From positions 1 to 64,000 of the forward strand of contig NZ_JABVED010000017.1 in NCBI RefSeq assembly GCF_014323725.1: a stretch of DNA of 64,000 nt, given 5' to 3'. Position numbers and translations under genes: made by a program. The number at the start of each line of letters is the position of its first letter. The stretch's first letter is position 1. Positions 2,096 to 63,550 of the stretch are shown one piece after another. Source of the DNA: Actinokineospora xionganensis (GTDB taxonomy: Bacteria > Actinomycetota > Actinomycetes > Mycobacteriales > Pseudonocardiaceae). The notes under the pieces are model-generated. The model was not told the DNA's origin. It did no database searches and saw nothing but the letters and a program-made list of their open reading frames with translations.

Positions 2096-3190
2096 GTGGC
2101 GGGGGACGCTAACCAGGCCGTACCGGCGAGCGACTCCCTTCATATGGACACCCGAGTGGACGGGCAGGGCGCCGATCTCGTGCTCGACGCGCTGCCGGAT
2201 GAGTTGGTCGCCTCCCTGGAGGTGCGCGACGCCTGGCGCGAGCGGGTCGCCGCGCAGCGTGAGGGTCTGGAGTTCCTCATCGACGACCTGGCCCGCTGGC
2301 GGCCCGGCTCCGCGGTGCGGGTCGCGTTCCTCGACGGAGACAAGGACCTGCACCGCGACATCGTCGACGCCACGGCGCAGATCACCGACGCCTGCAACCT
2401 GGAACTCGACTTCGGGCTCGACCCGGCGAGCGGCGAGTTCCGCCGGTGGACCGTCCTCGACACCGAGCACGCCGCGGACATCCGGGTCAGCTTCGACATG
2501 CCCGGCTTCTGGTCCCTGGTCGGCACCGACAGCAACGACAGCACCATCGGCGGCCCGGGCAGCCCGATCGGCGGCGGACCCGGCCAGCGCAGCCTCAACC
2601 TCGGCGGTTTCAAGACCGCCAAACCCAACCGGTGGCAAGGCACGGTCCGCCACGAGTTCCTGCACGCGCTGGCGTTCAAGCACGCCCACCAGAACATGCG
2701 CGGGCCGTGTGAGGACGAGTTCCGCTGGGACGACGACCCCGGGTACGTGCCGACCAAGGACAACCGGGGCAGGTTCGTGCCGGACGCGGCCGGGCGTCGC
2801 CCCGGCATCTACACCTACCTCGCGGGCGAGCCCAACAAGTGGCCGCGGGCCAAGGTCGACCACAACCTTCGCACCAAGGAGTCGCCGGACGTGATCGCGG
2901 GCCCGTTCGACGCGAAATCCGTGATGCTCTACCAGTTCGAGCCATTCTTCTACCACTCCGCGCCGAGCGCCTGCGCGCCGACCGGAAACGGTCTCGACCT
3001 CTCCGAAGGGGATAAACGCGGCCTGCAGCTGCTCTACCCCCACGCGGCCGACGACCTCTCCGACCTGGCCGGGCGCGCGGAGTCCACTTTGGAGATCATG
3101 GGTGCCGGGCAGGAGGCCGACCTGGAGCAATTCCCCTACCTGGCAAGGGTTTTCGACTTGCTCAACGGGATGGTGGGCCGCACGGACTAA
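2096..3190 (+). CDS. Metzincin-like zinc metalloprotease, probable conflict-system effector
   Basis: Up to 364 residues from GTG 2096; ATG 2144 (16 codons in) is an alternative and neither has a clear ribosome site. The zinc signature HEFLHALAFKH lies at residues 186-196, giving HExxHxxxxxH with H186, H190 and H196 as ligands and E187 as the base. A downstream SVMLY near residues 275-279 matches an astacin-type Met-turn (SxMxY). There is no signal peptide and no pro-domain, so the enzyme is predicted to stay in the cytosol, unlike most astacins. The stop is 10 nt before the next gene of a four-gene operon with STAND-type proteins. Protease fold and context are well supported; the effector role is inferred. 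Confidence 0.8.
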   Translation: MAGDANQAVPASDSLHMDTRVDGQGADLVLDALPDELVASLEVRDAWRERVAAQREGLEFLIDDLARWRPGSAVRVAFLDGDKDLHRDIVDATAQITDACNLELDFGLDPASGEFRRWTVLDTEHAADIRVSFDMPGFWSLVGTDSNDSTIGGPGSPIGGGPGQRSLNLGGFKTAKPNRWQGTVRHEFLHALAFKHAHQNMRGPCEDEFRWDDDPGYVPTKDNRGRFVPDAAGRRPGIYTYLAGEPNKWPRAKVDHNLRTKESPDVIAGPFDAKSVMLYQFEPFFYHSAPSACAPTGNGLDLSEGDKRGLQLLYPHAADDLSDLAGRAESTLEIMGAGQEADLEQFPYLARVFDLLNGMVGRTD

Positions 3191-3200
3191 GGCGGGCGCG

Positions 3201-4244
3201 GTGCTTCTGACCGACGAACAGCACAAGCAGGTCGTGTACCTGATCACGGAGTACCTCGGCGAGGGCAGATACGGCCAGGTCGCCAGGGACCTGTTCGGCC
3301 CGGAGGCGCTGCGCGTGGTCCCGGCGGGGCTCAACCCGCACAACCACGCCAAGTGGCTGCTGGACTGGTCACTGGCGCTGCCCACGGCCGACACCTTCGT
3401 CAACGTCGTGCTGCGGGTCGACGCCGCGGGTGAACTTGTCAAGGTGCACCAGCTCGTGGGCCACTTGCGGACCGGGCAGCTCGACTGGACCGGTCTCGGC
3501 ACCGGCGAACTGTGGATGCCCGCGGAATGGCCGTTCGCCGACCGGGAGCCGCTGCGGACCCACCTGGGCGACATCGCCCGCGGGGACGGCCCCACCGCCT
3601 TGACCATCGACGGCCCCGCCGGGCACGGAAAGCGCACGATGTGCGCCTACATCGACCACTGCGCCCGCAGACACGGCGTCTTCACACCGGTGGTCGAGCA
3701 CCTGCAGCGGCTGCACGACAACCGGATGGTCGACTACCTCGCCGACCAGCTGCGGCTCAAACTGGGCGTGGTGGTGCCGCCCGCGATCGACCCCGAACCC
3801 GAGCGCCGGGCGGTCACCCTTGCCGCGAACCTCGGCGGCTTCGCGGTGCACAGCCGCACCCCGGTCTGGTTCGTCGCCAACCTCGTCGAGCCTGAGCAGG
3901 ACGCGGGGGTGCTGAAGTTCCTCGGTGAACTGCTGCGGCAGGTCCAGACGACCCCGCTGCTGGCCAAGAAGCTGCGGATCACCGTGCTGGCCGATTTCGC
4001 CGCCGTCGCGATGGAGAACCTGCCCGAGATCAACTCCCGGTACACCCTCGCCGAGATCTCCGAGGCAGAGATAGCCGGGTGGCTGGCCGCCGCGGTGCCC
4101 GGCAAGGACGAGGCCTACTACCGGCACACCGCCGACCAGGTGATCAGCCATGTCACCGCCCTGCAGCCCACCCCGAGGATGCGGCTGCGTCTGCTGGCGC
4201 AGAAGTGCGTCGACGCGCACCGCGTGCTGCTGCAGGAGGCCTGA
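3201..4244 (+). CDS. Adaptor domain plus degenerate P-loop (iSTAND-like) protein
   Basis: A 347-residue protein from GTG 3201. The first ~95 residues form a small domain (LLTDEQHKQVVYLITEYLG onward) that resembles effector-associated adaptor domains. A P-loop-like GPAGHGKRT follows at residues 138-146: the lysine is kept, but the position after it, normally Ser/Thr, is Arg. The strand where Walker B should sit reads PVWFVANLV (221-229) with Asn in place of the acidic residue. Nucleotide hydrolysis is therefore doubtful. The stop overlaps the next start (TGATG). Inactive STAND-like proteins of this size are known partners in effector-associated-domain conflict operons; the match here is by pattern and context. 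Confidence 0.6.
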   Translation: MLLTDEQHKQVVYLITEYLGEGRYGQVARDLFGPEALRVVPAGLNPHNHAKWLLDWSLALPTADTFVNVVLRVDAAGELVKVHQLVGHLRTGQLDWTGLGTGELWMPAEWPFADREPLRTHLGDIARGDGPTALTIDGPAGHGKRTMCAYIDHCARRHGVFTPVVEHLQRLHDNRMVDYLADQLRLKLGVVVPPAIDPEPERRAVTLAANLGGFAVHSRTPVWFVANLVEPEQDAGVLKFLGELLRQVQTTPLLAKKLRITVLADFAAVAMENLPEINSRYTLAEISEAEIAGWLAAAVPGKDEAYYRHTADQVISHVTALQPTPRMRLRLLAQKCVDAHRVLLQEA

Positions 4245-7200
4245 TGGAAGCGGGCGACCGGCTGCGGGAGCTGTTGGCGGTCCTGTTCGACGACCACCGG
4301 GAGCTGCAGAGCTTCCTCGCGCTCGAAGGGATGCGGGTGAGCACCCGCCCGGGTGGCAAGGGGTCGTCGTTCGCGGCCGAGGTGTCGATGGAGCTCCGCA
4401 GGCGCGGGCTGGTCGACGAGCGGCTCTTCGCCGCGCTCACCAGGCGGTTCCCCGACCGGGCCGACGACATCGCCGACGTCGCCAGGTCCTTTCTCGGCGG
4501 GTCTGCTGTGGACACGCCGGCGGTCCGGGAACTGCCCCCGGAGTACGCGGACTTCACCGCGAAGCTGAACGCCGCGCTGTCGGACACGGCGGTCCCCACC
4601 GACGAGGAAATCGCGCTGGACGACGACCACCTGCCGTGGACGACGGCCGCGGCGGTGCTGGGGCGGTTCCTCCCGGCGAAGCTGCGCCCGCTGCGGCCGA
4701 CCCGCACCTCGGCGGTCGGCATGCTCGCGGAGTTCAGCCACACCGCCATCGACGGCTGCTGGATCCTGCTCGACGAGGTCCGGACCCAGTGCCTGCGCCT
4801 GCTCTGGGAGACCGGAACCCTGCAGGACGCGCTGGCGGTCAACGCCGACCTGCCCGACGCCGAGCGCGACAAGGTGCGCGAATTGCTCGCGGGCACGCGG
4901 CCGAACCTCGCCGGGCTCGGCACGGCCGAACTCGAGGAATACGCCGTCGTCACCGGCTGGCTGGAGGTCGCGGGCGTCCTCGACGAGACCGTCGGCACCG
5001 AGGTCGACGCCACCCTGGAGCGCCGCGCGCTGCTCGACCCGCTCCGAGCCCTGGTGGGCACCCACTTCCACGGCCGGGAACCCGAACTGGCGGTGTTCGA
5101 CTCCTTCGTCCACGGGGTGGCCGACCCCATGCTGCTGTGCCTGCGCGGGCCGGGCGGGGTCGGCAAGTCGAGCCTGCTCGGCAAAGTCCTCCTGGGGCTC
5201 GAACAGGCCGCGGGGGAGTACGCGGCGGTCCCGTTCGCCTACCTCGACTTCGACCGCGCGCGCAACGACCCGCGCGACCCGATCGGGCTGCTGCGGCAGA
5301 TCGCGCGGCAGTTGCGGCTGCTCCACGCGACCACCGAGGAAGCCCGCGCCCTGGCCGCGACCGAAAGCGTCTACTGGGGCTCCGATTTGGAGAAGGCCTC
5401 GGCCATTCTCGACATCGACTTCGACCGGCAGGGAAATCTGGCCGCGATGGTCGGCGTCCTCGCCGACCGGCTGCACAAGCTGATGGACACCCACGGCCCC
5501 GCCGGCTACCGGACCCCGCTCGTGCTGTTCCTCGACACCTACGAGGAAGTGCAGCTCAAAGGTCCGGGAGCGGTGCGCGACCTCGAGCGGCTCATCGGGC
5601 ACCTGCTCGCCGCGCTCCCCGATATGCGCGTCATCGTCTCCGGGCGCGGCGACCCGACGGTGTTCACCGGTTTCGAGAACCTGGTCCTGACCCTGGGCGA
5701 GCTGGAACCGCCCGCCGCGGACGCGGTGCTCGCCGACCTCGGGGTCGCCGATCTGGCGCTGCGCACGACCATCGTGGCGAAGTTCGGCGGCCACCCGCTG
5801 ACCCTGCGGCTGGCCGCGGAGGCGTTGGAGCGCACGGGGACCGCGGTGTTCGACGACGTCGCCGCGCGCGGCGACGCGCTCGCCGGGATCGCCATCGAAC
5901 AGGTCCAGGGGATGCTCTACGGACGCATCCTCAGCCACATCGCCGACCCGGAAGTCCGCCGGATCGCCTACCCGGGCCTGGCGGTGCGGCGGATCACCGT
6001 CGACGTGCTGCGCGAGGTGCTGGCCGACCCCTGCGATCTCGACCCCGACCACGCCGAGCTGATCTTCGACAAGCTCCGGTTCGAGGTCAGCCTGTTCGAG
6101 CTCGACGGGCCGGACACGCTGCGCCACCGCCAGGACGTCCGCACGCTGATGCTGCGGTCCATGATGGACGAACCCGCCCTGGCCGCCGTCGTGGCGCGCG
6201 TCCACCGCCGCGCGATCGACTACTACCAGGCCCGCCCGGGCACCGAAGACCGCGCGGAAGAGGTCTACCACCGGCTGATGGTCGGCGAGGACCCTAGATA
6301 CCTCGACCGCGTCTGGGACCCGGCGCTGCGCCCGCTGTTGGCCCCGGCGCTCGGCGAGCCGCTGCCGCCAAGGGCGTGGACCTGGCTGAGCAGGCGCCTC
6401 GGCTTCGGCGAGACCGACGACCGCGCGGAATGGGACCAGCGCGACTGGGAGGCCGATGCGGAGGGGCGGGCGATGTCGTGGCTGGCCTCCGGCGACCCGG
6501 CGAGCGCGCTGGCCGTGCTCGCCGAGCGGACGGAACGGCTACCCGACACCAAGCTCCACCTTGTGGAAGTGCGGGCGAGGCTGGCGGCCAAGGACGTCGA
6601 GGGCGCGGCGGCGGCCTTGGAGCGCGGGATGGCCGCGGCCGCGGAGTCCGACGACCGCGACACTCAGGTGGCCCTGGCCGAACAGGCCGTCGTCGTCCGC
6701 GGACTGCGGGGCGACGGCGCCGGTGTGGTCAGCGCGGCGGAATGGGCGGTGCGCGGCTGCGACCTTCTCGGCGACCAGACCCGCGGCGTGGACGTGCTGA
6801 CCGACGCGGTGGGCATCCTGGGCGGACTCGACGACGCAGGCGAAGGCCTCCGCGGCGAGTTGGCGTCCCGATTCACCCACCTGTCGCGGTCCGACCTGCT
6901 GGACAACGTGGACCTGGTCCGGCGCGTGCTGCACACCGCGGGCCCGTCGGACGACACCGTGCTGCACCACGCCGCGGTGCAGGTGGGCGACCAGACCGAG
7001 GCCGAGGACGGCGTGTTCCAGCACGACCCGTTCGCCGTCGCCCGGCTGCTGCGGGAGATCTCACCGGAAGGCGCGCCCGCGCTCGCGGACCTGGCGGCCG
7101 AGGTCGGACTGTCCGGTCGAGGGTGGAAGACCGAGGACCTGGCCAGCTCGGTGGTACGCGCGGGCCGGACCGGCAAGGCGGTCGCGGTCGGGCTGGACTG

Positions 7201-7288
7201 GGCGCGCGACGCGGGCCAGGCCCGCCGGATGGTCGTCGACACTCTCGTTCGGCCGGTCGCCGGCCACGATGGCAGGAGCAAGTCATGA
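4244..7288 (+). CDS. STAND-family NTPase with N-terminal effector-associated domain
   Basis: A 1014-residue cytosolic protein; ATG 4244 overlaps the previous stop by one base. Residues 1-85 form an all-helical adaptor (RELLAVLFDDHRELQSFLAL) like effector-associated domain 1. The NTPase core has Walker A GPGGVGKSS at 302-310, Walker B LVLFLDTYEE with D431, a sensor strand MRVIVSGRGD and the STAND-type GGHPLTL near 515. The C-terminal half is Ala/Leu/Arg-rich with paired helices, a TPR-like supersuperhelix suited to sensing a ligand. It should act as the signal-gated switch that gathers the adaptor-bearing proteases encoded on both sides. The trigger is unknown. Family call is firm, role inferred. 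Confidence 0.85.
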   Translation: MEAGDRLRELLAVLFDDHRELQSFLALEGMRVSTRPGGKGSSFAAEVSMELRRRGLVDERLFAALTRRFPDRADDIADVARSFLGGSAVDTPAVRELPPEYADFTAKLNAALSDTAVPTDEEIALDDDHLPWTTAAAVLGRFLPAKLRPLRPTRTSAVGMLAEFSHTAIDGCWILLDEVRTQCLRLLWETGTLQDALAVNADLPDAERDKVRELLAGTRPNLAGLGTAELEEYAVVTGWLEVAGVLDETVGTEVDATLERRALLDPLRALVGTHFHGREPELAVFDSFVHGVADPMLLCLRGPGGVGKSSLLGKVLLGLEQAAGEYAAVPFAYLDFDRARNDPRDPIGLLRQIARQLRLLHATTEEARALAATESVYWGSDLEKASAILDIDFDRQGNLAAMVGVLADRLHKLMDTHGPAGYRTPLVLFLDTYEEVQLKGPGAVRDLERLIGHLLAALPDMRVIVSGRGDPTVFTGFENLVLTLGELEPPAADAVLADLGVADLALRTTIVAKFGGHPLTLRLAAEALERTGTAVFDDVAARGDALAGIAIEQVQGMLYGRILSHIADPEVRRIAYPGLAVRRITVDVLREVLADPCDLDPDHAELIFDKLRFEVSLFELDGPDTLRHRQDVRTLMLRSMMDEPALAAVVARVHRRAIDYYQARPGTEDRAEEVYHRLMVGEDPRYLDRVWDPALRPLLAPALGEPLPPRAWTWLSRRLGFGETDDRAEWDQRDWEADAEGRAMSWLASGDPASALAVLAERTERLPDTKLHLVEVRARLAAKDVEGAAAALERGMAAAAESDDRDTQVALAEQAVVVRGLRGDGAGVVSAAEWAVRGCDLLGDQTRGVDVLTDAVGILGGLDDAGEGLRGELASRFTHLSRSDLLDNVDLVRRVLHTAGPSDDTVLHHAAVQVGDQTEAEDGVFQHDPFAVARLLREISPEGAPALADLAAEVGLSGRGWKTEDLASSVVRAGRTGKAVAVGLDWARDAGQARRMVVDTLVRPVAGHDGRSKS

Positions 7289-8457
7289 CATTCGCGTATC
7301 TGACCTCCGACGAGCTCAGGGAAGTCCAGCAGGCGGCCGTCGACCTCGGCTTCGCCGACGCGGACCAGAGCGCCGCGCTGACCGCGAACATCTCGCGCGC
7401 GTTCGTGGCCACCGCGACGCAGGGCGGCACCCCGCTGGCCAAGCTGATGACGCTGACCTCGCGGATGAACACCACGAGGGCGCTGGTCTCCGGCCAGGTC
7501 CCGCTGCGGGAGTGGCTCGGGGCGGCCATCCCGATGGCGGGCGGACAGCCGCAGGAGATGGTCTTCCGGCGGGCCCTGGAGCTGATGTCCGCCGACGGGC
7601 GGGCGCGGAGCTCACCCGGCGCCGACCCGGCGCCGGTGCTGGTCGACGTCGAGGACCTGCCGCGCAACGACGGCGAACTCGAGGTCGTGATCTTCGAGGA
7701 CGACACCCTGGACGTGGCGTTCCTGCACACCGGGACGGACGTGTCCCGGTCGGTGGCGAAACTTGTGGTGCACCGGCACTTCGACGGCGTGCCCGCGACG
7801 TTGGCGGGCAACGCGCCCGACGTCGGCCACGGCACCGGCTGGATGATCGGACCCAACCTGCTGATCACCAACAACCACGTCGTCAACGCCCGCGTCGGCA
7901 GCGAACCGGACGCGAGCGCCGCCGACTTCGACCTGCAGGGCAAGGCGATCCGCGCGCTGTTCGACTTCTACACGACCGACGCGACCGTGCACAGCGCGGT
8001 CTCGGCGGGCTGCGTCGCCCACGACAAGACGCTGGACTACGCCATCCTGCGGCTCGCCCCGGACAGCTCGCCCCGGCCGCCGCTGCGGCTGCGGACCAAC
8101 CCGATCCTCAAACCCAAGGACCGGGCGCTGCGCGAACGGGTCAACGTCCTGCAGCACCCCGGCGGCAACCCGATGCGCCTGGGGTTCCGCAACAACTTCG
8201 TCGTCACCGGCACCGCCGACCGCCTCAGCTACCTGACCGACACCGCGGGCGGGTCGTCGGGCTCACCGATCTGCGACGACGCCTGGTTCGCCGCCGCGCT
8301 GCACCGCGGGTTCCAGACCATCACCGGCGGATCGGTGTCGGTGTGGGGGCGGACCATCAACCAGGAGAACTACGGCACGCCGATCGGGAAGATCCTGGAA
8401 CACCTCGCGGCCAACCACCCCGACCTGCGCGCGGAGATCGTCGCGGGCCAGGGTTGA
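7285..8457 (+). CDS. Trypsin-like serine protease with N-terminal effector-associated domain
   Basis: A 390-residue protein; ATG 7285 overlaps the NTPase stop (ATGA) and has AGGAGC upstream. Residues 1-90 are a helical adaptor (LREVQQAAVDLGFADADQ), matching effector-associated domain 1 in size and pattern. The protease domain spans about 160-380 with the triad H198 (ITNNHVV), D251 (DYAILRL) and S325 (GGSSGSP), a V8/trypsin-like arrangement. No signal peptide is present, so it should act inside the cell. The adaptor can pair with the like domain of the adjacent NTPase, bringing the protease to it on activation. It ends the four-gene operon, 3 nt from a convergent phosphatase gene. Confidence 0.87.
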   Translation: MTFAYLTSDELREVQQAAVDLGFADADQSAALTANISRAFVATATQGGTPLAKLMTLTSRMNTTRALVSGQVPLREWLGAAIPMAGGQPQEMVFRRALELMSADGRARSSPGADPAPVLVDVEDLPRNDGELEVVIFEDDTLDVAFLHTGTDVSRSVAKLVVHRHFDGVPATLAGNAPDVGHGTGWMIGPNLLITNNHVVNARVGSEPDASAADFDLQGKAIRALFDFYTTDATVHSAVSAGCVAHDKTLDYAILRLAPDSSPRPPLRLRTNPILKPKDRALRERVNVLQHPGGNPMRLGFRNNFVVTGTADRLSYLTDTAGGSSGSPICDDAWFAAALHRGFQTITGGSVSVWGRTINQENYGTPIGKILEHLAANHPDLRAEIVAGQG

Positions 8458-8460
8458 CGG

Positions 8461-9909
8461 TCAGACGCCGATCTTCCCCCAAGGACCCCAGATCGCGAAC
8501 GTCACGCCGCGGCTGGCCTGGATGTTCACGAACAGCGTGTGCCCGTCGGGGCTGAACGTCGACCCGGCGAACTCGTCGTTGAACCTGGGGGCGCCCGTGC
8601 TGCTCACCAGCCGGTTGAGGGCGATGTCGAAGAGTTGCCCCTGCCGGGTCAGGCCGCGCATGTAGTTGTTGTTGCTGCCGTCCTCGCAGACGACGAGCGT
8701 GCCCCGGTTGCTGGTGGTGACGTTGTCCGGGAAGTCGAGCACGTCCGCGCCGGGGGACTGGTACTGCAGCCGCAGGACCTCCTCGCGGGTGTCGTAGGCC
8801 CAGATCTGGCCGCTCCCGTTGCCGTAGCCCGAGACGTTGTCGGGCCCGGTCTCGGCCGGACCGCCGCCCTGGGTGGAGGTGAAGTAGACGACGCCGCGGT
8901 CGATGGCGGCGCCCTCCAGTCGGGAGAAGAAGGCGGCGCCCTGGGCCCAGCCCTGGCTTGCGACATAAGTGATCGCGTCGTTGTTCGAGGTCGGGGCGGG
9001 CTGGCCCGGGGTGTAGGGGAACGTCGGTGCCGGGTCCTCGATGTCGACCCATTCCACCTGGTAGGTGGTGCCCGCGGGCTGCCCGGCCTCCAGGTGCGCG
9101 TTGGGCTGCCCCTTGACCTTGAGCATCTGCAGCCTGCCGAGGTTGTCCAGGCGCCCGTACTCCATCGGGTCCAGCCGCGGCTTGTACCGGTAGAAGCCCG
9201 AGGGGAATCCGAAGTCGTCCTCGGTGAGGTAGAGGCAGCCACCCTCGCGGTCGTATGCCACCGACTCGTGCGCGAACCGGCCCGCCGCGGTGATCGGCTC
9301 GCCGTCGGACACACCGTGCGCGGGGACGTCGAAGATGAAGCCGTGCGGCCTGGTCAGCGGGACGTTGGACACGCCGGTGAAGTCCGGGCCCACGTCCGGG
9401 CCGTTGACGGTCTCCTCGCAGGTGATCCAGGAGCCGAACGGCATCTGGCCGCCGGAGCAGTTCATCTGCGTGCCGTTGAGGCTGGTGTAGGAGCGCACGA
9501 CCTCGCCGTACCGGGTGACCTCCACGGAGGTTGTTCCGCCCATGGCCTTCGCGTCGTAGGCCTTGGACACGTCGCCGAACGCCGTGCCCGTGCCGTTGAC
9601 CTCATGGTTGCGCACCAGCATGACGTTGGTGCCACGCGTCTTGAACGCGCCCATGCCGTCGTGCCTGCCGGGCAGCACCGTGTCGTCGTCCAACACGACC
9701 CGGGACTCGGTGTCGTGGAAGGAGCGGTACTGGAAGCCGTCGGGCAGCCAGAGCCGCACGGCGCCGTCGCGCAGGTCGGGCACCGGGCCCAGGGGATACG
9801 ACACCGCGGGCGCGGCGGCCGCGCGGTTGACGAAGCCGAGGAACGGGCCGCCGAGCAGTGCGCCCGCGACCGCCCCTCGGAGGACGGAGCGTCGGTCCAT
9901 GTCCACCAT
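8461..9909 (-). CDS. PhoX-family (DUF839) exported phosphatase
   Basis: A 482-residue protein that opens with a twin-arginine signal (DRRSVLRGAVAGALLG) and an AxA-type cleavage region near residue 33. The body is a beta-propeller of the PhoX/DUF839 family with typical stretches such as LVRNHEVNGTG, GSWITCEETVNGP and HESVAYDREGGCLYLTEDD. PhoX enzymes are calcium/iron-dependent phosphomonoesterases folded in the cytosol and exported by Tat. ATG 9909 has AGGATCG upstream; ATG 9900 is a possible second start. It lies 44 nt after a co-directional methyltransferase gene. Phosphatase activity is presumed from the family only. Confidence 0.88.
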   Translation of the reverse strand: MVDMDRRSVLRGAVAGALLGGPFLGFVNRAAAAPAVSYPLGPVPDLRDGAVRLWLPDGFQYRSFHDTESRVVLDDDTVLPGRHDGMGAFKTRGTNVMLVRNHEVNGTGTAFGDVSKAYDAKAMGGTTSVEVTRYGEVVRSYTSLNGTQMNCSGGQMPFGSWITCEETVNGPDVGPDFTGVSNVPLTRPHGFIFDVPAHGVSDGEPITAAGRFAHESVAYDREGGCLYLTEDDFGFPSGFYRYKPRLDPMEYGRLDNLGRLQMLKVKGQPNAHLEAGQPAGTTYQVEWVDIEDPAPTFPYTPGQPAPTSNNDAITYVASQGWAQGAAFFSRLEGAAIDRGVVYFTSTQGGGPAETGPDNVSGYGNGSGQIWAYDTREEVLRLQYQSPGADVLDFPDNVTTSNRGTLVVCEDGSNNNYMRGLTRQGQLFDIALNRLVSSTGAPRFNDEFAGSTFSPDGHTLFVNIQASRGVTFAIWGPWGKIGV

Positions 9910-24386: not shown

Positions 24387-25658
24387 TTGCGATGGACCGC
24401 TGAGCGGGTGCTCGACCTCGCGCCCGACCCCGCCTCCGCGAAGGCCGGTCGGAGCCAGGCGAGCCCGGCGAAGTGGCCCTCGCTCGGGGCATCGGCGCAC
24501 GCGGTGTGGGGTGACTGCCAGGGGAGTGGGAAGGCGCCGTACCAAGTCGGCGTCGACCTGGCGGAGCCCGCGTTCAAGTGCTCGTGTCCGAGCCGGAAGT
24601 TCCCCTGCAAGCACGCCATCGGATTGCTCCTGCTGTGGGCCGAGGGCGCGGTCCCGGAGTCCGGCGAGCCGGAGTGGATCGACACCTGGCTGGCCCGGCC
24701 CAAGCGGGCCGAGCCAACCGGTGAGCGCGACGAGGAAGCGGCCGCGCGGCGCGCGGAGAAGCGGGCCTCGCGGGTCGCGGGCGGTGCCGCGGAGCTGATC
24801 GGCTGGCTGGGCGACCAGGTGACGACCGGCCTGGCGGTGCTCGACCAGAGTCCCGACGTGCTCTACGGCGTCGCCGCCCGCATGGTCGACGCCCAGGCCC
24901 CTGGGCTCGCTTCGGGACTGCGGCGGGCCGCGATGCTCCCCGGCCGCGGGCGGGACTGGCCGTCGCGGCTGCTGGAGGACCTCGCGCTGCTGCGGACCCT
25001 CGCGGTGGCGTACTCCCGGATCGATGACCTGCCCGCCCCGCTCGCCGCGACCGTGCGCACCCGGCTGGGGTTCACGGTGGACGCCGCCGACGTCCTCGCC
25101 TCCGGCGACCGCGTGCGTGACGAGTGGCTGGTCGCGGGACATGTCGACCAGGAGAACGACCAGTTGGTCTCCAGGCGGACGTGGCTTCGGGGTTCTTCGA
25201 GCGGGCGGTGGGCGCTGGTGCTGTCGTTCGCCGGTCCGGGCCGGATTCTCGACACCTCCCTGGTGTCCGGCACGCTGATCCCGGCAACCCTGGCGTTCTA
25301 CCCGGGCGCGCTGCCACTGCGCGCCCTCGTGGCCGACCGCGACGACGCTGTCCCCGCACCGGTGCCCGGAGGTGGGACCGTGGACGACGCACTGGCCGCG
25401 TTCGCCGCCGGACTGGCGCTCGACCCGTGGCTCGACCGTTTGCCGGTGGTGCTGCGCGAGGTCGCGCCGGTGTCGCTGGGCAAGGACTGGGGACTGTCCT
25501 CTGTGGACGGTTCGGCGCTGCCGCTCGGCTCCGGTGTCGACCCGTGGCCGCTGCTGGCGGTCTCGGGCGGGCGGGCGCTGACGGTGGCGGCGGAGCTTTC
25601 GGTGAGCGGGTTGCGTCCGCTGTCCTGTTGGGACGGGGAGCGAGCGGTGCGGCTGTGA
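24387..25658 (+). CDS. SWIM zinc-finger protein of the MoxR/VWA operon
   Basis: A 423-residue protein; TTG 24387 (MRWTAERVLDLAPD) fits the usual family opening and has GAGGG upstream. The SWIM finger is C65-S-C67, C74, H76 (KCSCPSRKFPCKH), a CxCxnCxH zinc site thought to bind DNA or protein. The remainder is Ala/Arg-rich helical sequence without a recognised catalytic site. It overlaps the next gene by GTGA and opens a five-gene operon found widely in actinobacteria. Its place with MoxR and VWA proteins suggests a substrate or nucleic-acid recognition part. Confidence 0.85.
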   Translation: MRWTAERVLDLAPDPASAKAGRSQASPAKWPSLGASAHAVWGDCQGSGKAPYQVGVDLAEPAFKCSCPSRKFPCKHAIGLLLLWAEGAVPESGEPEWIDTWLARPKRAEPTGERDEEAAARRAEKRASRVAGGAAELIGWLGDQVTTGLAVLDQSPDVLYGVAARMVDAQAPGLASGLRRAAMLPGRGRDWPSRLLEDLALLRTLAVAYSRIDDLPAPLAATVRTRLGFTVDAADVLASGDRVRDEWLVAGHVDQENDQLVSRRTWLRGSSSGRWALVLSFAGPGRILDTSLVSGTLIPATLAFYPGALPLRALVADRDDAVPAPVPGGGTVDDALAAFAAGLALDPWLDRLPVVLREVAPVSLGKDWGLSSVDGSALPLGSGVDPWPLLAVSGGRALTVAAELSVSGLRPLSCWDGERAVRL

Positions 25659-27073
25659 GCGGGTGGGATGAGCTGGTGGCCGCCGCCCTGCTGGGCACGC
25701 GGCGGCGGGTGGTGCACACCGAAGGGTTGCCGGAGTCCGTGCGGGCTTTGGTACCCGACGACGGGGACTCGGCCGGTCGGTTGCTGACCGCTGCCGCGCT
25801 TATGGCCGGGTACCGGCGGGCGGGGCGGGTCCCGGAGACCGGCGGCCTGCCGATAGCCGAGGCGGTCGAGGACACCAGGCCGGTCATCCCCGCCGTGGCG
25901 CGACGACGGCTCGATCGGATGCTCACCGGCGATCACACCGACCTGCTCGGTGACTGGCTGGAACTGGTGCGCCGCACCGATATGCGGTTGCCGCCGGAGC
26001 GCTTGCCGGTCCTGGCCGAGTTGGCGCGGACGCGGCATGCGCTGCGCTCCTCGTTCGCGGAGGTCGCCGGGGGACGTGGCAGTTGGCTGGGCGCGCTCAA
26101 TCCTGAGTGGACCTACCTGGCCGACCACCGTTGCGATGTCGCCGACGTGTGGCGCTACGGCGACACCGACCAGCGGGTGCGCTGGCTGCGGGAGACGTTC
26201 GCCGCCGACCCGGCCGCCGCGCGCGAAGCGTTGGCCCGTGACTGGGTGGCTGAGCCCGCCGCGAACCGCGTGCGGTTCCTGCGCGCCGTCGGTGACCTGG
26301 TCGGGGACGACTTCCTCGAAGCCGCCCTCGACGACCGGGCCCAGGAGGTGCGGGCGCTGGCCGCCGACATCCTCTCCGGCAGGCCCGCCTCCGCGTTCGC
26401 CGCCCGGATGGCCGCGCGCCTTCGTGCACTGGTCACGGTGGCCGATTCGACGATCACCGTCCGGCTCCCGACCACCCGCGACGGCGGCATGGCGCGCGAC
26501 GGCGTCCCCGCCGCACCCGCCCGGGGCGGACAGCGCACGGCCTGGCTGCGGCACATCGTGGCGGCGTCCCCGCTCGCCGCGTGGGAGCGGAGCCCCGCCG
26601 AACTGCTGGTGATGCCGGTCCAGGGCTGCGATCCCGGCGTGCTCCTCGAGGCCTGGGCCGCCGCCGCCATCCGCCAGCGCGACGTCGCCTGGGCGCGAGC
26701 GCTGCTCACCACCGACGACCTCACCACCCCGGAGACCGCCGCGCTGGTGAACGTGCTGCCCGCCGCCGAGCGGGCCCGGGTGGTCGCCGAACTCGGCGGC
26801 GCGCGCAAGTCCGCCGACCTCGCCGAACTCGTCGTGGCGCTGCCCGCCCCCTGGCCCACCGACCTGGGGAACGCCCTCCTGGACTGGCTGGCTGGCCACA
26901 CCGACCATCGCGCCGTCGCCCGGGCGGCGGGAGTCATCGCGCGCACCGTGCCCGCCGAGTGCCTGCGGCACAAAGTCGCCGTCGAGCCACTGCCCCCGGA
27001 CGCGCCAGCCTGGCGCCGGCACCTGTCGGAGACGCTGGTGTTCCGCCGCGAGATGGCGGAGGAATTGCGATGA
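25655..27073 (+). CDS. DUF5691-family protein of the MoxR/VWA operon
   Basis: A 472-residue cytosolic protein; GTG 25655 overlaps the SWIM gene stop (GTGA). It opens WDELVAAALLGTRRR, the usual first block of the DUF5691 family, and is made almost wholly of helices in HEAT-like pairs (RVRWLRETFAADPAAAREAL, VRFLRAVGDLVGDDF). No catalytic motif was found. The gene always keeps this company in related operons, so it is likely a scaffold or adaptor for the AAA ATPase. A 34-nt gap with GAGAGGG leads to the next gene. Confidence 0.8.
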   Translation: MSGWDELVAAALLGTRRRVVHTEGLPESVRALVPDDGDSAGRLLTAAALMAGYRRAGRVPETGGLPIAEAVEDTRPVIPAVARRRLDRMLTGDHTDLLGDWLELVRRTDMRLPPERLPVLAELARTRHALRSSFAEVAGGRGSWLGALNPEWTYLADHRCDVADVWRYGDTDQRVRWLRETFAADPAAAREALARDWVAEPAANRVRFLRAVGDLVGDDFLEAALDDRAQEVRALAADILSGRPASAFAARMAARLRALVTVADSTITVRLPTTRDGGMARDGVPAAPARGGQRTAWLRHIVAASPLAAWERSPAELLVMPVQGCDPGVLLEAWAAAAIRQRDVAWARALLTTDDLTTPETAALVNVLPAAERARVVAELGGARKSADLAELVVALPAPWPTDLGNALLDWLAGHTDHRAVARAAGVIARTVPAECLRHKVAVEPLPPDAPAWRRHLSETLVFRREMAEELR

Positions 27074-27107
27074 ATACCCTGATCTGCCGCAGTGAGAGGG
27101 ATGACAG

Positions 27108-28193
27108 ATGACCGAGACCGTGCTGCGCCCGCACGCCGAGCAGGCCCACGCCGCCGAGTTGGCCGCGCTGGCCGAGCACGACGACCGGCAGCGGCCGCCG
27201 TCGTGGCGGCTCTCACCGTGGGCGGTGCTCAACTACCTTCTGGGCACCACCCTGCCTGACGGCACCGTGATCACCCCCAAGTACATCGGCCCGCGCAGGC
27301 TCATCGAGGTCGCGATCGCCACCCTCGCCACCGACCGCGCGCTCCTGCTGCTGGGCGTGCCGGGCACGGCGAAGACCTGGGTGTCCGAACACCTCGCCGC
27401 TGCCATCAGCGGCGACTCGACGCTGCTGGTCCAGGGCACGGCGGGCACCGCGGAGGAAGCGATCCGCTACGGCTGGAACTACGCCCGGCTCATCGCCGAG
27501 GGGCCCAGCGAGCAGGCGTTGGTGCCCAGCCCGGTGCTGCGCGCGATGCGGGAGGGCAGGCTGGCCCGGGTCGAGGAGCTGACCCGCATCCCGGCCGACG
27601 TGCAGGACAGCCTCATCACCATCCTGTCCGAGAAGACCCTTCCGATCCCGGAACTCGAGTCCGAGGCGCAGGCCCGCCCGGGCTTCAACGTCATCGCCAC
27701 CGCCAACAACCGCGACAAGGGCGTCAACGAGCTGTCCAGCGCGCTGCGCAGGCGGTTCAACACCGTCGTCCTCCCGCTGCCGGACACCGCGGAGGCCGAG
27801 GTCGAGATCGTCACCCGTCGGGTGAGCGACCTCGGCGCCTCGCTCGCGCTGCCCGCCGACAGCGCCGGTCTCGCCGAGATCCGCCGCGTGGTCACCGTGT
27901 TCCGCGAGTTGCGCGCCGGGCGCACCGAGGACGGGCGGATCGCGGTGAAGTCCCCGTCGGGCACGCTGTCCACCGCGGAGGCGATCAGCGTGCTCACCGG
28001 CGGTGTCGCGCTCGCCGCGCACTTCGGCGACGGGGTGCTGCGCCCGCACGACGTGGCGGCCGGAATCCTTGGCGCGGTCGTGAAAGACCCGTCCGCCGAC
28101 CGTGTCGTGTGGATGGAGTACCTGGAGACTGTTGTCCGCGAACGCGATGGCTGGTCGGACTTCTACCGGGCGTGCCGGGAGCTGAGCGGATGA
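27108..28193 (+). CDS. MoxR-family AAA+ ATPase
   Basis: A 361-residue AAA+ protein. Walker A is GVPGTAKT at residues 83-90, in the MoxR form with Ala before Lys. The helix-2 insert region (VQGTAGTAEEAIRYGWNYA), a Walker B-like VEELTRIPADVQ region and sensor 1/arginine-finger stretch NVIATANNRDKGVNELSSAL with RRRF follow. MoxR ATPases act as hexameric chaperones with VWA partners, remodelling or inserting metal into target complexes. The VWA partner is encoded two genes on. ATGA overlap joins it to the next gene. Confidence 0.93.
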   Translation: MTETVLRPHAEQAHAAELAALAEHDDRQRPPSWRLSPWAVLNYLLGTTLPDGTVITPKYIGPRRLIEVAIATLATDRALLLLGVPGTAKTWVSEHLAAAISGDSTLLVQGTAGTAEEAIRYGWNYARLIAEGPSEQALVPSPVLRAMREGRLARVEELTRIPADVQDSLITILSEKTLPIPELESEAQARPGFNVIATANNRDKGVNELSSALRRRFNTVVLPLPDTAEAEVEIVTRRVSDLGASLALPADSAGLAEIRRVVTVFRELRAGRTEDGRIAVKSPSGTLSTAEAISVLTGGVALAAHFGDGVLRPHDVAAGILGAVVKDPSADRVVWMEYLETVVRERDGWSDFYRACRELSG

Positions 28194-30367
28194 CCGCAGC
28201 GGTCACCCTGCTCGGCATCCGCCACCACGGCCCCGGTTCCGCCCGGGCCGTGGTGCGCGCGCTCGCCGACCTCGCGCCGGACCTGGTGCTGATCGAAGGC
28301 CCGCCGGAGGCCGACGCCCTGGTGTCGTGGGCCGCCGAGGACACCATGGTGCCGCCGGTCGCCCTGCTGGCCTACGCCACCGACGACGCCGCCCGCGCCG
28401 CGTTCTGGCCGTTCGCCGTGTTCAGCCCGGAATGGCAGGCGATCCGCCACGCGGTCGAGGCGGGCGTCCCGGTGCGCTTCTGCGACCTGCCCGCCGCCCA
28501 CCAGTTCGCCGCCGAACCCACCCGCCGCCGCGGTCGCACCGAGGACCCGCTCGGGACCTTGGCCCAGCTGGCGGGCTATGACGACGCCGAGCGCTGGTGG
28601 GACGAGATGATCGAACACGGCCGCCACGGCGAGCCGCCGTTCGAGGTGATCGCCGAGGCGATGGGCGCCCTGCGCGAGGAGCACCAGGACACCGACGAGC
28701 GCGAGCGGCAGCGCGAGGCGTACATGCGCCAGGTCATCCGCAAGTCGCAAAAGGACGGTTACGAGCGGATCGCCGTGGTCTGCGGCGCCTGGCACGTTCC
28801 CGCGCTGGGGCAACCTTTCCCGCCCGCCACGCACGACCAGAAAGTCCTCAAAGGACTCCCGAAGCGCAAGGTCGCGTGCACCTGGGTGCCGTGGACCCAC
28901 AGCAGGCTCGCCACCACCAGCGGCTACGGCGCGGGCATCACCTCGCCCGGCTGGTACCACCACCTGTTCACCGCGACCGACCACATCACCGCCCGCTGGC
29001 TGACCGACGTCGCCCGGGTGCTGCGCGCCGAGGACCTGCCCGTGTCGAGCGCCCACGTGATCGAGGCTGTCCGGCTGGCCGACACCCTTGCCGCGCTGCG
29101 CGGCCGGGCCGTCGCGGGACTGTCCGAGGTCACCGAGGCGACCCGGGCTGTCCTGTGCGGCGGCGATGAGCTGCAACTCGACCTCGTGACCAGGCGCCTG
29201 GTCGTGGGGGAGCGCCTGGGCGAGGTGCCCGAGGGCACGCCGCAGGCGCCGGTCGCCGCCGACCTCACCGCCCAGGCGCGCAGGCTGCGGCTCAAGCGCG
29301 ACCCGCAGGAGCGCGAACTCGACCTGGACCTGCGTGACACCAACGGCGCCGAGCGTTCCAAGCTCCTGCACCGGCTGCGGATCCTCGGCGTCGACTGGGG
29401 CGTTCCCGCGATCTCCGCGCGCCGCTCCAAAGGCACGTTCCGCGAGACCTGGTCGCTGGCTTGGGAACCGGCGTTCGAGGTCGACCTCGTCGCGGCCGGG
29501 GTGCACGGAACGTCCGTGGTCGCCGCCGCCACCTCGGTGGTGCGGTCACGGACCACCGGTGAGTCCTCGCTGCCCGACATCACCGGCGCCATCGAGGACT
29601 GCCTGCTCGCCGACCTCGTCGACGCCCTGCCCGTAGCGCTCGCCGCCCTCGACACCCGGGCCGCCGCCGACGCGGACGCCGCGGCGCTCATGGGCGCGCT
29701 CCCGCCGCTGGCCCGGGCCGCGCGCTACGGCGACGTCCGCGGCACCGACACCGCGGCGCTGACCGCGGTCAGCGAACGGATCCTGACCAGGGTCTGCGCC
29801 GGTCTCCCGCGGGCCGCGCACGGCCTCGACGACCAAGCCGCCGAGGAGCTCTGCGCCTTGGTCGACGGCGTGCACGAGGCCACAGGGCTGCTGGGTGAGG
29901 CCGCGACCGCCCAGTGGCTCGACGCGCTCGCGGCCGTCGCCGCCCGGGACTTCGCCCCGCCCCTGCTGGCAGGCCGGGTCACCCGGCTCCTGCACGACGC
30001 CGACCGGGTGGTCACCGACGAGGTCGCGCTGCGCCTGGGCCGGGAACTGACCGCCGGTGTCGCGCCCGCCGCGGCCGCCGCCTACATCGAGGGCTTCTTC
30101 GCGGGCGGCGCCCTGCTGCTGATCCACGACGACGCGCTCCTCGACGTCCTCGACCGCTGGCTCGCTGGTATCGCCTGCGAACAGTTCGCCCAGGTCCTTC
30201 CGTTGCTGCGGCGTACTTTCGGCGCGTTCGCCGGCCCGGAGCGGCGCACGATCGGCGAACGCGCCGCCCGGCGCGGCTCGGGTGTCCCGGCGGTCGTGGC
30301 GGAGCTCGACGAGGAACGGGCGGCGGCCGCCGTGCCGGTGCTCGCGACACTGTTGGGGGTGCGGTGA
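28190..30367 (+). CDS. DUF5682-family large protein of the MoxR/VWA operon
   Basis: A 725-residue cytosolic protein starting at ATG 28190 in an ATGA overlap. The N-terminal ~230 residues (LLGIRHHGPGSARAVVRAL, LVLIEGPPEADAL, VVCGAWHVPAL) resemble the TraB/PrgY-like or ChaN-like fold, with conserved HH, E and H residues that could bind metal. The rest is helical and Ala-rich. DUF5682 proteins occur only in this type of operon, so it may be the substrate or the effector of the MoxR-VWA machine. That assignment is inferred. Confidence 0.8.
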   Translation: MTAAVTLLGIRHHGPGSARAVVRALADLAPDLVLIEGPPEADALVSWAAEDTMVPPVALLAYATDDAARAAFWPFAVFSPEWQAIRHAVEAGVPVRFCDLPAAHQFAAEPTRRRGRTEDPLGTLAQLAGYDDAERWWDEMIEHGRHGEPPFEVIAEAMGALREEHQDTDERERQREAYMRQVIRKSQKDGYERIAVVCGAWHVPALGQPFPPATHDQKVLKGLPKRKVACTWVPWTHSRLATTSGYGAGITSPGWYHHLFTATDHITARWLTDVARVLRAEDLPVSSAHVIEAVRLADTLAALRGRAVAGLSEVTEATRAVLCGGDELQLDLVTRRLVVGERLGEVPEGTPQAPVAADLTAQARRLRLKRDPQERELDLDLRDTNGAERSKLLHRLRILGVDWGVPAISARRSKGTFRETWSLAWEPAFEVDLVAAGVHGTSVVAAATSVVRSRTTGESSLPDITGAIEDCLLADLVDALPVALAALDTRAAADADAAALMGALPPLARAARYGDVRGTDTAALTAVSERILTRVCAGLPRAAHGLDDQAAEELCALVDGVHEATGLLGEAATAQWLDALAAVAARDFAPPLLAGRVTRLLHDADRVVTDEVALRLGRELTAGVAPAAAAAYIEGFFAGGALLLIHDDALLDVLDRWLAGIACEQFAQVLPLLRRTFGAFAGPERRTIGERAARRGSGVPAVVAELDEERAAAAVPVLATLLGVR

Positions 30368-31491
30368 ACGACGAACGCCTGCGGCGGTGGCGCCTGGTCC
30401 TCGGCGGCGACGAGGACGGCACCGGCGTCGGCCTCAACGCCGAGGACTCCAAAATAGACGGTGTGCTGGCCGCCCTGTACCAGCCCGAACCGGAGTCAGG
30501 CACGCCGCGCTCGGGCGGGCTGGCCGCCTCCGCGCCGCGGGTCGCCCGGTGGCTGGGCGACATCCGCGCCTACTTTCCGAGTTCCATCGTGCAGGTCATG
30601 CAGCGCGACGCCGTCCACCGGCTCGGCCTCAAACGGCTGCTGCTCGAACCGGAACTGCTCTCGGCCGTCGAGCCGGACGTGCACCTGGTGGGGACACTGC
30701 TGTCGCTCAACTCCGTGATGCCCGAACGCACCAAGCAGACCGCTCGCGACGTCGTGCGCAAGGTGGTGGACGATTTGGAGAGCCGCCTGGGCGAGCCGAC
30801 TCGTGCGGCGGTGAGGGGGGCGCTTGACCGGGCGGCCCGCAGTGCGCGGCCCCGGCATGCGGACATCAACTGGGGCAGGACAGTACATGCCAACCTGCGC
30901 AACTACTCGCCTGAGCTGCGGACGGTCGTCCCGGAGCGCCTGGTGGGGTATGGGCGGCGCAACAAGAGCATTCAGCGGGACGTGATCCTGGCGATCGACC
31001 AGTCGGGGTCGATGGCTGAATCCGTTGTGTACGCGAGCCTTTTCGGTGCTGTGCTGGCGTCGATGCGGGCGTTGCGTACTCAGCTGTTCGCGTTCGACAC
31101 CGCCGTGGTGGATCTGTCGGATCTGCTTGAGGATCCGGTGGATGTGCTGTTCGGGACGCAGCTTGGTGGTGGGACTGATATCAACCGGGCGCTCGCTTAT
31201 ACGCAGGGGTTGATCAGCAAACCGGCGGACACGTTGGTGGTGTTGGTGAGTGATCTTTATGAGGGTGGGAACCGGGAGGAGATGCTGGCTCGGGTTCGGA
31301 TGATCGTCGAATCCGGGGTGCAGATGGTGGCGCTGCTGGCTTTGGCCGACTCCGGTGCGCCTTCATATGATCACGACAATGCCGCCGCTTTCGCCGCTCT
31401 CGGGGTTCCGGCGTTCGCTTGCACGCCTGATCGGTTTGGTGATCTTCTCTCGGCTGCTCTGCGGCGGGAGGATCTGAGTCGGTGGGTGTGA
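30364..31491 (+). CDS. VWA-domain (CoxE-like) protein, MoxR partner
   Basis: A 375-residue protein; GTG 30364 overlaps the previous stop (GTGA). The first ~190 residues are helical. The von Willebrand A domain starts near 205 with a full MIDAS metal site DQSGSM (D212, S214, S216), the Thr in GGTDINRAL and the Asp in LVVLVSDLYEGG. It should bind the MoxR ATPase and hand substrates to it. It ends the five-gene operon; codon use in the last 500 nt drifts to lower GC at third positions, but the frame and motifs stay intact. Confidence 0.92.
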   Translation: MNDERLRRWRLVLGGDEDGTGVGLNAEDSKIDGVLAALYQPEPESGTPRSGGLAASAPRVARWLGDIRAYFPSSIVQVMQRDAVHRLGLKRLLLEPELLSAVEPDVHLVGTLLSLNSVMPERTKQTARDVVRKVVDDLESRLGEPTRAAVRGALDRAARSARPRHADINWGRTVHANLRNYSPELRTVVPERLVGYGRRNKSIQRDVILAIDQSGSMAESVVYASLFGAVLASMRALRTQLFAFDTAVVDLSDLLEDPVDVLFGTQLGGGTDINRALAYTQGLISKPADTLVVLVSDLYEGGNREEMLARVRMIVESGVQMVALLALADSGAPSYDHDNAAAFAALGVPAFACTPDRFGDLLSAALRREDLSRWV

Positions 31492-39803: not shown

Positions 39804-39992
39804 ATGGTCAAGTCCGACGTGGAAAACATGATCACCCGCTTAGCCACCCTCGGCGTCGAAGCCGCTCCCGCGGAGCGTTCCGCCGAGCTCAGGATCGACC
39901 GGTTCACCCAGTGGGTGGATGACCAGAGCCCGGTGGCCAAGGCGTGCGTGGGTGGCTTCACCTCCGTCTTCCCGGCTGAGCAGCTGGTCTGA
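39804..39992 (+). CDS. RiPP (TOMM) precursor peptide
   Basis: A 62-residue peptide, ATG 39804 with GGGAGAG upstream. The first ~40 residues are leader-like (VKSDVENMITRLATLGVEAA then ELRIDRFTQW). The tail reads ACVGGFTSVFPAEQLV and holds one Cys, one Thr and one Ser, far fewer than classic azole peptides. Its stop overlaps the cyclodehydratase start (TGATG), so the two are coupled. Identification rests on size, position and coupling; the core boundary and the modified residues are not known. Confidence 0.7.
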   Translation: MVKSDVENMITRLATLGVEAAPAERSAELRIDRFTQWVDDQSPVAKACVGGFTSVFPAEQLV

Positions 39993-58319: not shown

Positions 58320-59669
58320 TCAGGCCGGGTGCACCGTCATCGGCAGCCCGCCCTTGACCCGCAGCGACAGCATCGGCTCCGGGACCACCTCATACCCCGG
58401 CACCAGCTTCAGCGTCATCTCCCGCGCCAGCATGGAGATCACGAACGTCGCCTCCATCAGCCCAAGGTGGCTCCCGACGCAGAAGCGCGGTCCAGCCCCG
58501 AAAGGCAGGTATGCGTACCGCGGCCGGGTGTTCGCCCGAGACGGGTCGAACCGGTCCGGGTCGAACTTCTCCGGTGCGTCCCAGAACTCCGGGTGGCGGT
58601 GCAAGGTGTACGGGCACACCATCACATCCGAGCCCGCGGGCACGTGGTAGCCGCCGACCTCGTCCTCCTCGACCGAACGCCGGGTCAGGATCCACACCGG
58701 CGGGTAGAGACGCATGGCCTCTTCGAGCACCATGTTCGTGTACGTCAGGCTCTTCAGATCCTCCAGCACGGGCGTCCGGTCGCCCAGCACCGCGATGGCC
58801 TCCTCCCGCAGGCGGGAAGCGACATCCGGGTGCTGGTCCATCAGGTACAGCGCCCACCCGACCGTGGACGCCGTCGTCTCGTGGCCTGCCAGGAGCAACG
58901 TGATCAGTTCGTCGCGCATGCGCGTCTGGGCGACGCGGGGGTCGGATTCCTTGCTGGTGGACTGGATCAGCCGGGAGATCACGTCGTCCGCCGGGTCGCG
59001 CGGATTGCCAAGGCGTTCCGCGACAAGGGCTTCGACGATCCGCGACAGGTCGTCGCTGGCCTTGCGGAACTCCCGCTGCCTGCGCAGCGGGAGCCACGTG
59101 GGGACCATGCCCATGGTCTCCATCTCGAACATCGCCTGGTCCTGCACGGCTTCGAACGAGTGCCCGATCGACTCGAACGCGTCCAGGTCGGCGTCGAGGA
59201 GGGTCCGGCCGAGTACACCGAGGGTGAACCCGGTGAGCTCGTGCAGGACGTCCGTCGGGCCCTGGCGGGTCCGCAGGCGGGCCACCAGCTTGGCCGCCTC
59301 CTCGACGATGGTGTCGGCCTGGGCGGCGATCCGCCGGTGCTGGAACACCGGCTGGATCGTCCGCCGCTGCTCCCGCCACAGCGCCCCGTCGCTGGTCAGC
59401 AGGCCGTCCCCGAGGGCTCGGCGTGCTTCAACGTAGCCGATTCCCTTGTGGTAATTGGCACTGTTGTCGGCGAGGATGTGCTTCGCGTGGTCGGGGTGGT
59501 TGAAGTAGTAGAGCGTCTTTGGTCCGATCCCCACCCGCACCGCGTCCCCGTAGGTCGCCGCCGCCGTGGACATCAGCGTGAGCCGGTCGCCTTTGAGCTG
59601 CTTGAGCAGGCTGAGCGTCTGACTGCGTGGGGGACCGGGGGGGACACGGTGCGAGGGGGTCATCGTCAT
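58320..59669 (-). CDS. Cytochrome P450
   Basis: A 449-residue monooxygenase; ATG 59669 overlaps the UnbU stop (ATGA). The oxygen-binding I-helix is AGHETT (261-266), the K-helix is EEAMRLYPP and the haem loop is FGAGPRFCVG with Cys397. The proline-rich start (RVPPGPP) and large size resemble CYP102/CYP110-like fatty-acid or polyene hydroxylases more than small antibiotic P450s. Last gene of the leftward operon, so it likely oxidises the product of that pathway. No redox partner is encoded here. Confidence 0.95.
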   Translation of the reverse strand: MTMTPSHRVPPGPPRSQTLSLLKQLKGDRLTLMSTAAATYGDAVRVGIGPKTLYYFNHPDHAKHILADNSANYHKGIGYVEARRALGDGLLTSDGALWREQRRTIQPVFQHRRIAAQADTIVEEAAKLVARLRTRQGPTDVLHELTGFTLGVLGRTLLDADLDAFESIGHSFEAVQDQAMFEMETMGMVPTWLPLRRQREFRKASDDLSRIVEALVAERLGNPRDPADDVISRLIQSTSKESDPRVAQTRMRDELITLLLAGHETTASTVGWALYLMDQHPDVASRLREEAIAVLGDRTPVLEDLKSLTYTNMVLEEAMRLYPPVWILTRRSVEEDEVGGYHVPAGSDVMVCPYTLHRHPEFWDAPEKFDPDRFDPSRANTRPRYAYLPFGAGPRFCVGSHLGLMEATFVISMLAREMTLKLVPGYEVVPEPMLSLRVKGGLPMTVHPA

Positions 59670-60628: not shown

Positions 60629-60634
60629 GACGGG

Positions 60635-63537: not shown

Positions 63538-63550
63538 CTGACTTTCCCCC

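Follow-up and report, generated by a model that had tools for sequence, protein, structure and literature searches.

Introduction

CARD-NLR anti-phage systems of Lysobacter enzymogenes and Azospirillum have reportedly been described by Wein and colleagues in 2025. The present analysis deals with an operon of four genes (A-D) from the actinomycete Actinokineospora xionganensis that looks, from its protein sequences, like a split version of the CARD-NLR machine. It is located in the first 64,000 nucleotides of contig NZ_JABVED010000017.1, and this whole stretch is hereafter called the window. CARD-NLR relatives of the operon have been studied experimentally (Banks et al. 2026, PMC13236601), and the remark of an earlier note on this DNA that no part of the operon was known from experiments needs amending to that extent. 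According to this source, LypABC of Caulobacter serves gene-transfer-agent release, the protease of the Lysobacter CARD system acts upstream of the effector, and CARD structures come from sources that include Azospirillum sp. TSO35-2 (cited as a crystal structure) and Lysobacter enzymogenes. The operon shares with LypABC and the CARD-NLR systems an NLR-like STAND protein with a TPR-like tail, an inactive ATPase partner, serine protease and a varying death effector, whereas it differs from them in encoding the serine protease apart from the inactive ATPase, in using an EAD5 domain as the protease adaptor and in having an astacin-like metalloprotease as its effector candidate. No metalloprotease effector in a CARD-NLR-like operon was met in the literature searched, a scope outside which the effector list of Wein et al. 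2025 lies.

A second group of related systems is formed by the nuclease-protease pairs of Hachiman, AVAST, Lamassu and DRT, in which insertions have been proven to gate a pro-nuclease until the partner protease cuts them (Tuck et al. 2025, PMC12799240). The same source proposes that further classes of enzymes activated by a partner protease await discovery, with co-evolution with the protease and insertions blocking the active site as their marks. Peptidase effectors, and rarely a metallopeptidase fused to a vWA component, are already known from other conflict systems (Kaur et al., PMC7159879, PMC8195603), and inactive zincin domains are mentioned for the iSTAND2 systems (Kaur et al. 2021, PMC8195603). 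EAD-coupled, VMAP and iSTAND systems resemble the operon in having EAD5, inactive STAND modules and peptidase effectors; unlike them, the operon has no MoxR-vWA pair, and gene A differs from the metallopeptidases and zincins of Kaur et al. in being a separate gene with an intact zinc motif.

The explanation preferred here, with a probability of about 0.55, is that the operon forms a cell-death system of CARD-NLR-like type with two paired proteases as its effector, the serine protease D activating a latent metalloprotease A. It builds on the linkage of the genes, the homology of B and C to CARD-NLR ATPases, the varying neighbours of the relatives, the serine protease found beside A in every case and the intact catalytic motifs of A, C and D, all of which have been computed here.

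Results

The protease pair across genomes

The search for gene A, which covered part of the genomes of the genus, has revealed full-length A proteins in 10 genomes, with a serine protease gene adjoining A in every one (10/10). Weak A-like matches (5 of 11 and 6 of 7 genomes in two scans, with five candidates scored per genome) correspond to distant relatives and stand outside these ten. The complete order A-B-C-D was found in four genomes (the window, G201, G159 and G190), and its recurrence in the three other genomes is beyond chance. In another genome (G215) A and D are intact, with the region from about residue 191 of B to residue 781 of C lost; there, an open reading frame (ORF; L014, 8638-9906) opens at the start of B and continues into the C-terminal portion of C, both ATPase cores being lost. 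In two genomes of the same genus (G152 and G100) A is followed by D, with about 114 nucleotides between them or a 4-nucleotide overlap, and in a further genome (G239) B-C-D is found with a caspase-Hsp70 gene in the place of A. The earlier expectation that the four genes are kept together was therefore borne out in part, A-B-C-D being conserved in three other genomes, A-D occurring without B and C in two, and B-C-D without A in one. In G826, G906 and G921, which belong to a different genus within the order, A is accompanied by a serine protease domain encoded on its own, a LypA-like protein and an NLR; this separate protease matches the D profile weakly (E 9e-4 to 4e-5). D is also present without A beside other effector-like genes in three loci (G239, L017 and L024). 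The distances of A and D are correlated (r 0.91; 21 pairs, 7 genomes). Like the pairs of Tuck et al., A-D consists of a serine protease inherited with an insertion-bearing second enzyme and is found in more than one type of system, but the second enzyme is a metalloprotease instead of a metallo-beta-lactamase (MBL) nuclease and its cleavage is only proposed. Co-evolution with the protease, the first mark of these authors, is thus present; the second is possibly so, with insertions present in A whose blocking of the active site and cleavage are putative.

Homology of B and C to CARD-NLR ATPases

Profile comparison relates B and C to the two ATPase components of CARD-NLR systems. It aligned the N-terminal domain of C with its counterpart in CARD-NLR NLR proteins (97.7%, E 1.7e-12), and C appears to be an NLR-like STAND ATPase of the LypB kind. 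Distant B proteins matched the LypA-like C-terminal ATPase (99.8%, E 2.4e-27), as did the whole B set (99.2%) and, more weakly, the B proteins of the window clade (90.7%, E 1.5e-7). Walker A, Walker B, the sensor Arg and the Pro of GxP are invariant across 24 aligned C proteins, in agreement with the large STAND NTPase previously recognized, and B was rightly described as a degenerate P-loop protein: Arg replaces the Ser/Thr that normally follows the Lys, and the Walker B position lacks an Asp. The search with C also led to the NLR-like protein in Azospirillum sp. TSO35-2 (L037; 31%, E 2e-35); beside it lies the one LypA-like match in this genome that comes close to full length. A phmmer search of PDB with three proteins of this locus gave no chain at the thresholds used, and the B profile gave only weak PDB matches, the best (E 0.0024) to an unrelated protein. 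Structure-neighbour lists for B refer mainly to residues 58-347, the adaptor lying largely outside.

The alignment of C was used for a profile search of genome contigs that yielded 33 loci from several phyla; an earlier search of this kind with B alone had confirmed no relative. Directly upstream of C, 19 of the 33 loci carry a B-like gene of 309-451 amino acids, such genes having been chosen by position and size, with a direct B-profile match in 8 of the 33 loci and with those of L027, L033 and L045 outside the alignments used. A LypA-like gene (628-737 amino acids) joining protease domain and ATPase in one protein was found in 12 of the 33, and the same fusion occurs in L091-L093; in L048 (Ktedonobacter), B, C and a serine protease domain form a single ORF of 1878 amino acids, and the contig of L046 begins inside C. 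Gene calls in the relatives' loci come from an ORF scorer and their starts are approximate. Effector-like neighbours differ among these relatives: caspase-Hsp70 with Pepco (L012), caspase and trypsin-LCAT (L017), LCAT (L018), PLD (L024, with L026 and L028 looking alike by sequence), a downstream GDSL lipase (L029) and trypsin-subtilisin (L044), with no match for the L020 neighbour in the domain scan. At L012 10585-13220, the caspase-Hsp70 fusion and the Pepco gene lie upstream of B-C-D, an effector swap. Of the 33 loci, a single one, L016 of Saccharothrix carnea, which is apparently the contig of G159, carries A itself. C matches were obtained in 34 of 397 genomes of the order (two candidates scored per genome), 6 of them with E < 1e-30 and the others resembling P-loop-level matches. 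Among plasmid records, 5 have A matches and 6 have C matches, all below 60% identity and none covering 80%.

N-terminal adaptors

The earlier note had assigned to C and D a common helical adaptor of about 85 residues and had named beforehand, as refuting, a failure of the two regions to match EAD profiles or each other. This claim was wrong in detail: D carries EAD5, C has a weak EAD1-like segment below the cut-off (Table 1), and the pairing of C with D fails in the window clade. EAD-EAD pairing of C with D was discarded as a candidate, with a hhalign probability of 0.1% between their N-termini and one EAD5 in the genome; the N-termini of B and D gave 0.2%, so the same EAD on an effector and a core component, as in EAD-coupled systems, was not found. 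EAD1 is listed in 3 of 5 C proteins scanned, the window included (best E 0.061), and C residues 1-90 are absent from 12 distant C/LypB proteins aligned. A scan of the A. xionganensis genome for EAD1 gave no match, and neither did the controls. The N-terminal helical adaptor of B had been overlooked; it is EAD1-like only via distant B proteins, EAD1 being listed for 8 of 21 B proteins of the wider set. In distant relatives, EAD1-like adaptors are common to B and D. The scan of 20 D proteins gave 13 matches to EAD5 and 7 to EAD1, the assignment to individual proteins being read from sequence and not from the scan tally; in the gene maps, the 13 EAD5-like D genes follow C, and the remaining 7 precede B. 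EAD5 has been predicted to be a mixed alpha+beta domain (Kaur et al., PMC7159879).

Catalytic residues of the two proteases

The motifs of both putative proteases of the earlier note stand. The zinc motif, Met-turn and metzincin fold of A are those of the astacins (M12A), including myroilysin, although its Pfam Astacin match is below the family cut-off. A differs from myroilysin and other M12A astacins in having no hydrophobic signal peptide, in its extra insertions and in its conflict-type operon setting. Myroilysin and three distant relatives lack the insertion at residues 184-221 or have a far shorter one, and the conservation of this insertion is 0.78, compared to 0.67 for the whole of A. 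The segment 2807-3157 of the window (A residues 222-338) matches the NCBIfam model 'beta-glucuronidase AbsR1' with 41.4 bits (cut-off 650). A distant relative of A was also seen in the cluster L086 1-7406, with a second astacin-like gene, two MBL-like genes and another metalloprotease-like gene, all recognized by eye, which may be another protease-MBL system.

The triad of D (His198, Asp251, Ser325), together with Thr320 and His340, is invariant in 21/21 aligned D proteins. Thr320 lies inside the Trypsin_2 domain and His340 just behind it, in the positions of V8-type enzymes (Thr at Ser-5, His at Ser+15), and both align with the staphylococcal glutamyl endopeptidases, whereas FAM111A has the His and not the Thr. 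These two positions are, we assume, the specificity-setting residues of V8-type glutamyl endopeptidases. Because of this alignment, D may cut after acidic residues, which is put forward as a hint only; a literature search on V8 specificity residues turned up no paper. The D profile of the window clade alone gave no PDB match at 1e-5, and the wider D set gave matches.

Operon layout and genomic surroundings

The genes are tightly linked, as had been noted, with a gap of 10 nucleotides between A and B and overlaps of 1 (B/C) and 4 (C/D) nucleotides. Simple hydropathy analysis detected no hydrophobic N-terminus and no transmembrane-like stretch in any of the four products.

Table 1. Features of the four-gene operon, with positions in the window.
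Feature	Position	Strand	Remarks
Gene A	2144-3190	+	348 aa; ORF open from GTG 2096; putative astacin/metzincin-type metalloprotease, predicted cytosolic
A, zinc motif HEFLHALAFKH (HExxHxxxxxH)	2651-2683	+	three His and Glu invariant in 10/10 A proteins
A, insertion, residues 184-221	2693-2806	+	between zinc motif and IYTYL; possible activation gate
A, metzincin Met-turn SVMLY	2918-2932	+	
Gene B	3201-4244	+	347 aa, GTG start; helical adaptor and degenerate STAND-type ATPase
B, six-helix N-terminal adaptor, residues 5-90	3213-3470	+	predicted model
B, degenerate P-loop GPAGHGKRT	3612-3638	+	
Gene C	4244-7288	+	1014 aa; STAND NTPase, TPR-like C-terminal region
C, weak EAD1-like N-terminal segment, residues 6-81	4259-4486	+	E 0.18, below cut-off
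C, N-terminal domain, residues 95-275	4526-5068	+	homologous to the domain of CARD-NLR NLR proteins
C, Walker A GPGGVGKSS	5147-5173	+	
C, Walker B LVLFLDTYEEV	5519-5551	+	
Gene D	7285-8457	+	390 aa; EAD5 and chymotrypsin-fold serine protease
D, EAD5 domain, residues 5-148	7297-7728	+	E 9.7e-51
D, Trypsin_2 domain	7831-8286	+	E 3.3e-17; triad H198, D251, S325

An ABC-type permease gene at 1168-2049, identified by its sequence, precedes the operon, and a PhoX-type protein gene follows it on the other strand (8461-9909). Among the 16 genomes of the genus, three have A next to this permease, although in G190 a small called gene intervenes; in 12 other genomes no A was found within 1.5 kb of the best permease match, and the contig of G100 ends too soon for a call. 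The three genomes with A beside the permease also carry a further copy of the permease that has no such operon within 1.5 kb of it. PADLOC covered 43 of the window's 44 called genes outside the operon and gave seven models with one gene each (subtilase, four IetS, mad2 and CARF3), and on the four operon proteins it gave matches to D only (best E 1.1e-4).

A run of genes at 24408-31491 encodes a SWIM protein, DUF5691, a MoxR-type AAA protein, DUF5682 and a vWA (CoxE-like) protein, forming a MoxR-vWA cluster. Its MoxR-like and vWA genes (27108-31491) lie about 19 kb from the operon, and the iSTAND ternary arrangement of MoxR AAA and vWA genes with an inactive STAND is absent from the operon. A YcaO protein gene with an adjoining small ORF (39804-42253) is a possible locus for a ribosomally synthesized and post-translationally modified peptide. 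The end of the window contains UnbV/ASPIC and DUF1702 genes (59666-64000) and, by sequence, a P450-like gene (58320-59573), which resemble enediyne-type biosynthesis genes.

Discussion

The STAND-centred conflict-type operon with two proteases proposed in the earlier note is supported, with one clear EAD, the EAD5 of D. In the mechanism put forward here, C would be an NTP-dependent switch and probable sensor (STAND with a TPR-like tail) that senses the trigger, and B, its degenerate ATPase partner carrying the helical adaptor, would assemble with it. This assembly would activate D, a serine protease that would pass on the signal and be docked through its EAD5. A would be an exchangeable executioner, held latent by insertions near its zinc site until it is switched on, probably through cleavage by D, and the active A would digest cell proteins, so that the cell is stopped or killed. 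We infer the latency of A, its cleavage by D, the direction of activation, the trigger and the death of the cell; the cleavage step would follow the analogy of the proven nuclease-protease pairs (PMC12799240).

Several results weigh against this explanation. The CARD, trypsin and inactive ATPase joined in one protein of the LypA kind are not found, because B consists of adaptor and degenerate ATPase and the protease is the separate gene D; since this strict architecture fails, the operon is, as judged from its sequence, a CARD-NLR-like relative and not a textbook member. The N-terminus of B did not match LypA-like N-termini (2.8% in profile comparison), and a CARD fold in B is putative, its residues 5-90 being modelled as six helices. 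No second EAD5 that could dock D was found in the genome. The NTPases are not constant partners of A-D, because the pair occurs without B and C in two genomes: in G152 and G100, no B, C or remnant lies between A and D, and no B or convincing C was found elsewhere in the genome (G100 has weak STAND-type matches, best 3.7e-8). Common descent may lie behind part of the correlation of the A and D distances. As for the gating of A, the insertion 184-221 appears folded in the model, the stretch 127-147 is disordered and less conserved (0.58) than the whole of A, and with a mean predicted local distance difference test score (pLDDT) of 66 the model neither makes a covering of the active site by the insertion visible nor resolves the N-terminus. 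SCO6992, a distant relative of A, has been reported as a beta-glucuronidase that binds zinc and shows no caseinolysis or protease activity (PMC9705864). Finally, the expected defence island is not visible in the window, with no clear neighbouring defence system.

This last result agrees with an alternative that is doubtful but survives best, in which the operon would be a developmental or lysis regulator of the actinomycete and not an anti-phage system. LypABC offers a precedent, and SCO6992 has been found to stimulate antibiotic synthesis (PMC9705864). The distribution of the operon is patchy, B having been detected in 3 of the 16 genomes searched for the genus and in 7 of 249 for the family (in one of these 7 as a weak P-loop match), and its neighbours are swapped between genomes, which suits conflict systems better than core development.

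It is unlikely that A is not a protease and that its zincin fold has been recruited for another zinc-dependent reaction. The behaviour of SCO6992, the inactive zincin domains of iSTAND2 systems and the replacement by Ala of the Gly of HExxHxxGxxH in 9 of 10 A proteins point in that direction; by analogy, the SCO6992 findings would fit either a latent zymogen or a non-protease, and this zincin, from which the AbsR1 name derives, may be a misnamed or latent protease.

The reverse order, with A acting first by maturing or releasing D (or by cutting B/C) and D as executioner, is likewise improbable: D-type proteases are kept with varying neighbours, and a D-type protease domain lies inside the switch protein itself in L018 and L048 (weak D-profile matches), but D is found with other effector-like genes in the absence of A and so does not need it, A was found without a serine protease in 0/10 genomes, and the Lysobacter CARD protease acts before its effector (PMC13236601).

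Within the preferred explanation, D activating a latent A, a wider and more tentative proposal is that the pair is a movable cassette, in which a V8-like serine protease would activate an astacin-like pro-metalloprotease that is cytosolic and gated; the cassette would occur in NLR-type operons of two kinds and also by itself, without any NTPase. The two-gene A-D loci make such a cascade testable without the NTPases. If true, the operon would place two proteases in a two-step cascade controlled by an NLR-like switch of bacteria, and would thereby parallel the inflammasome cascades.

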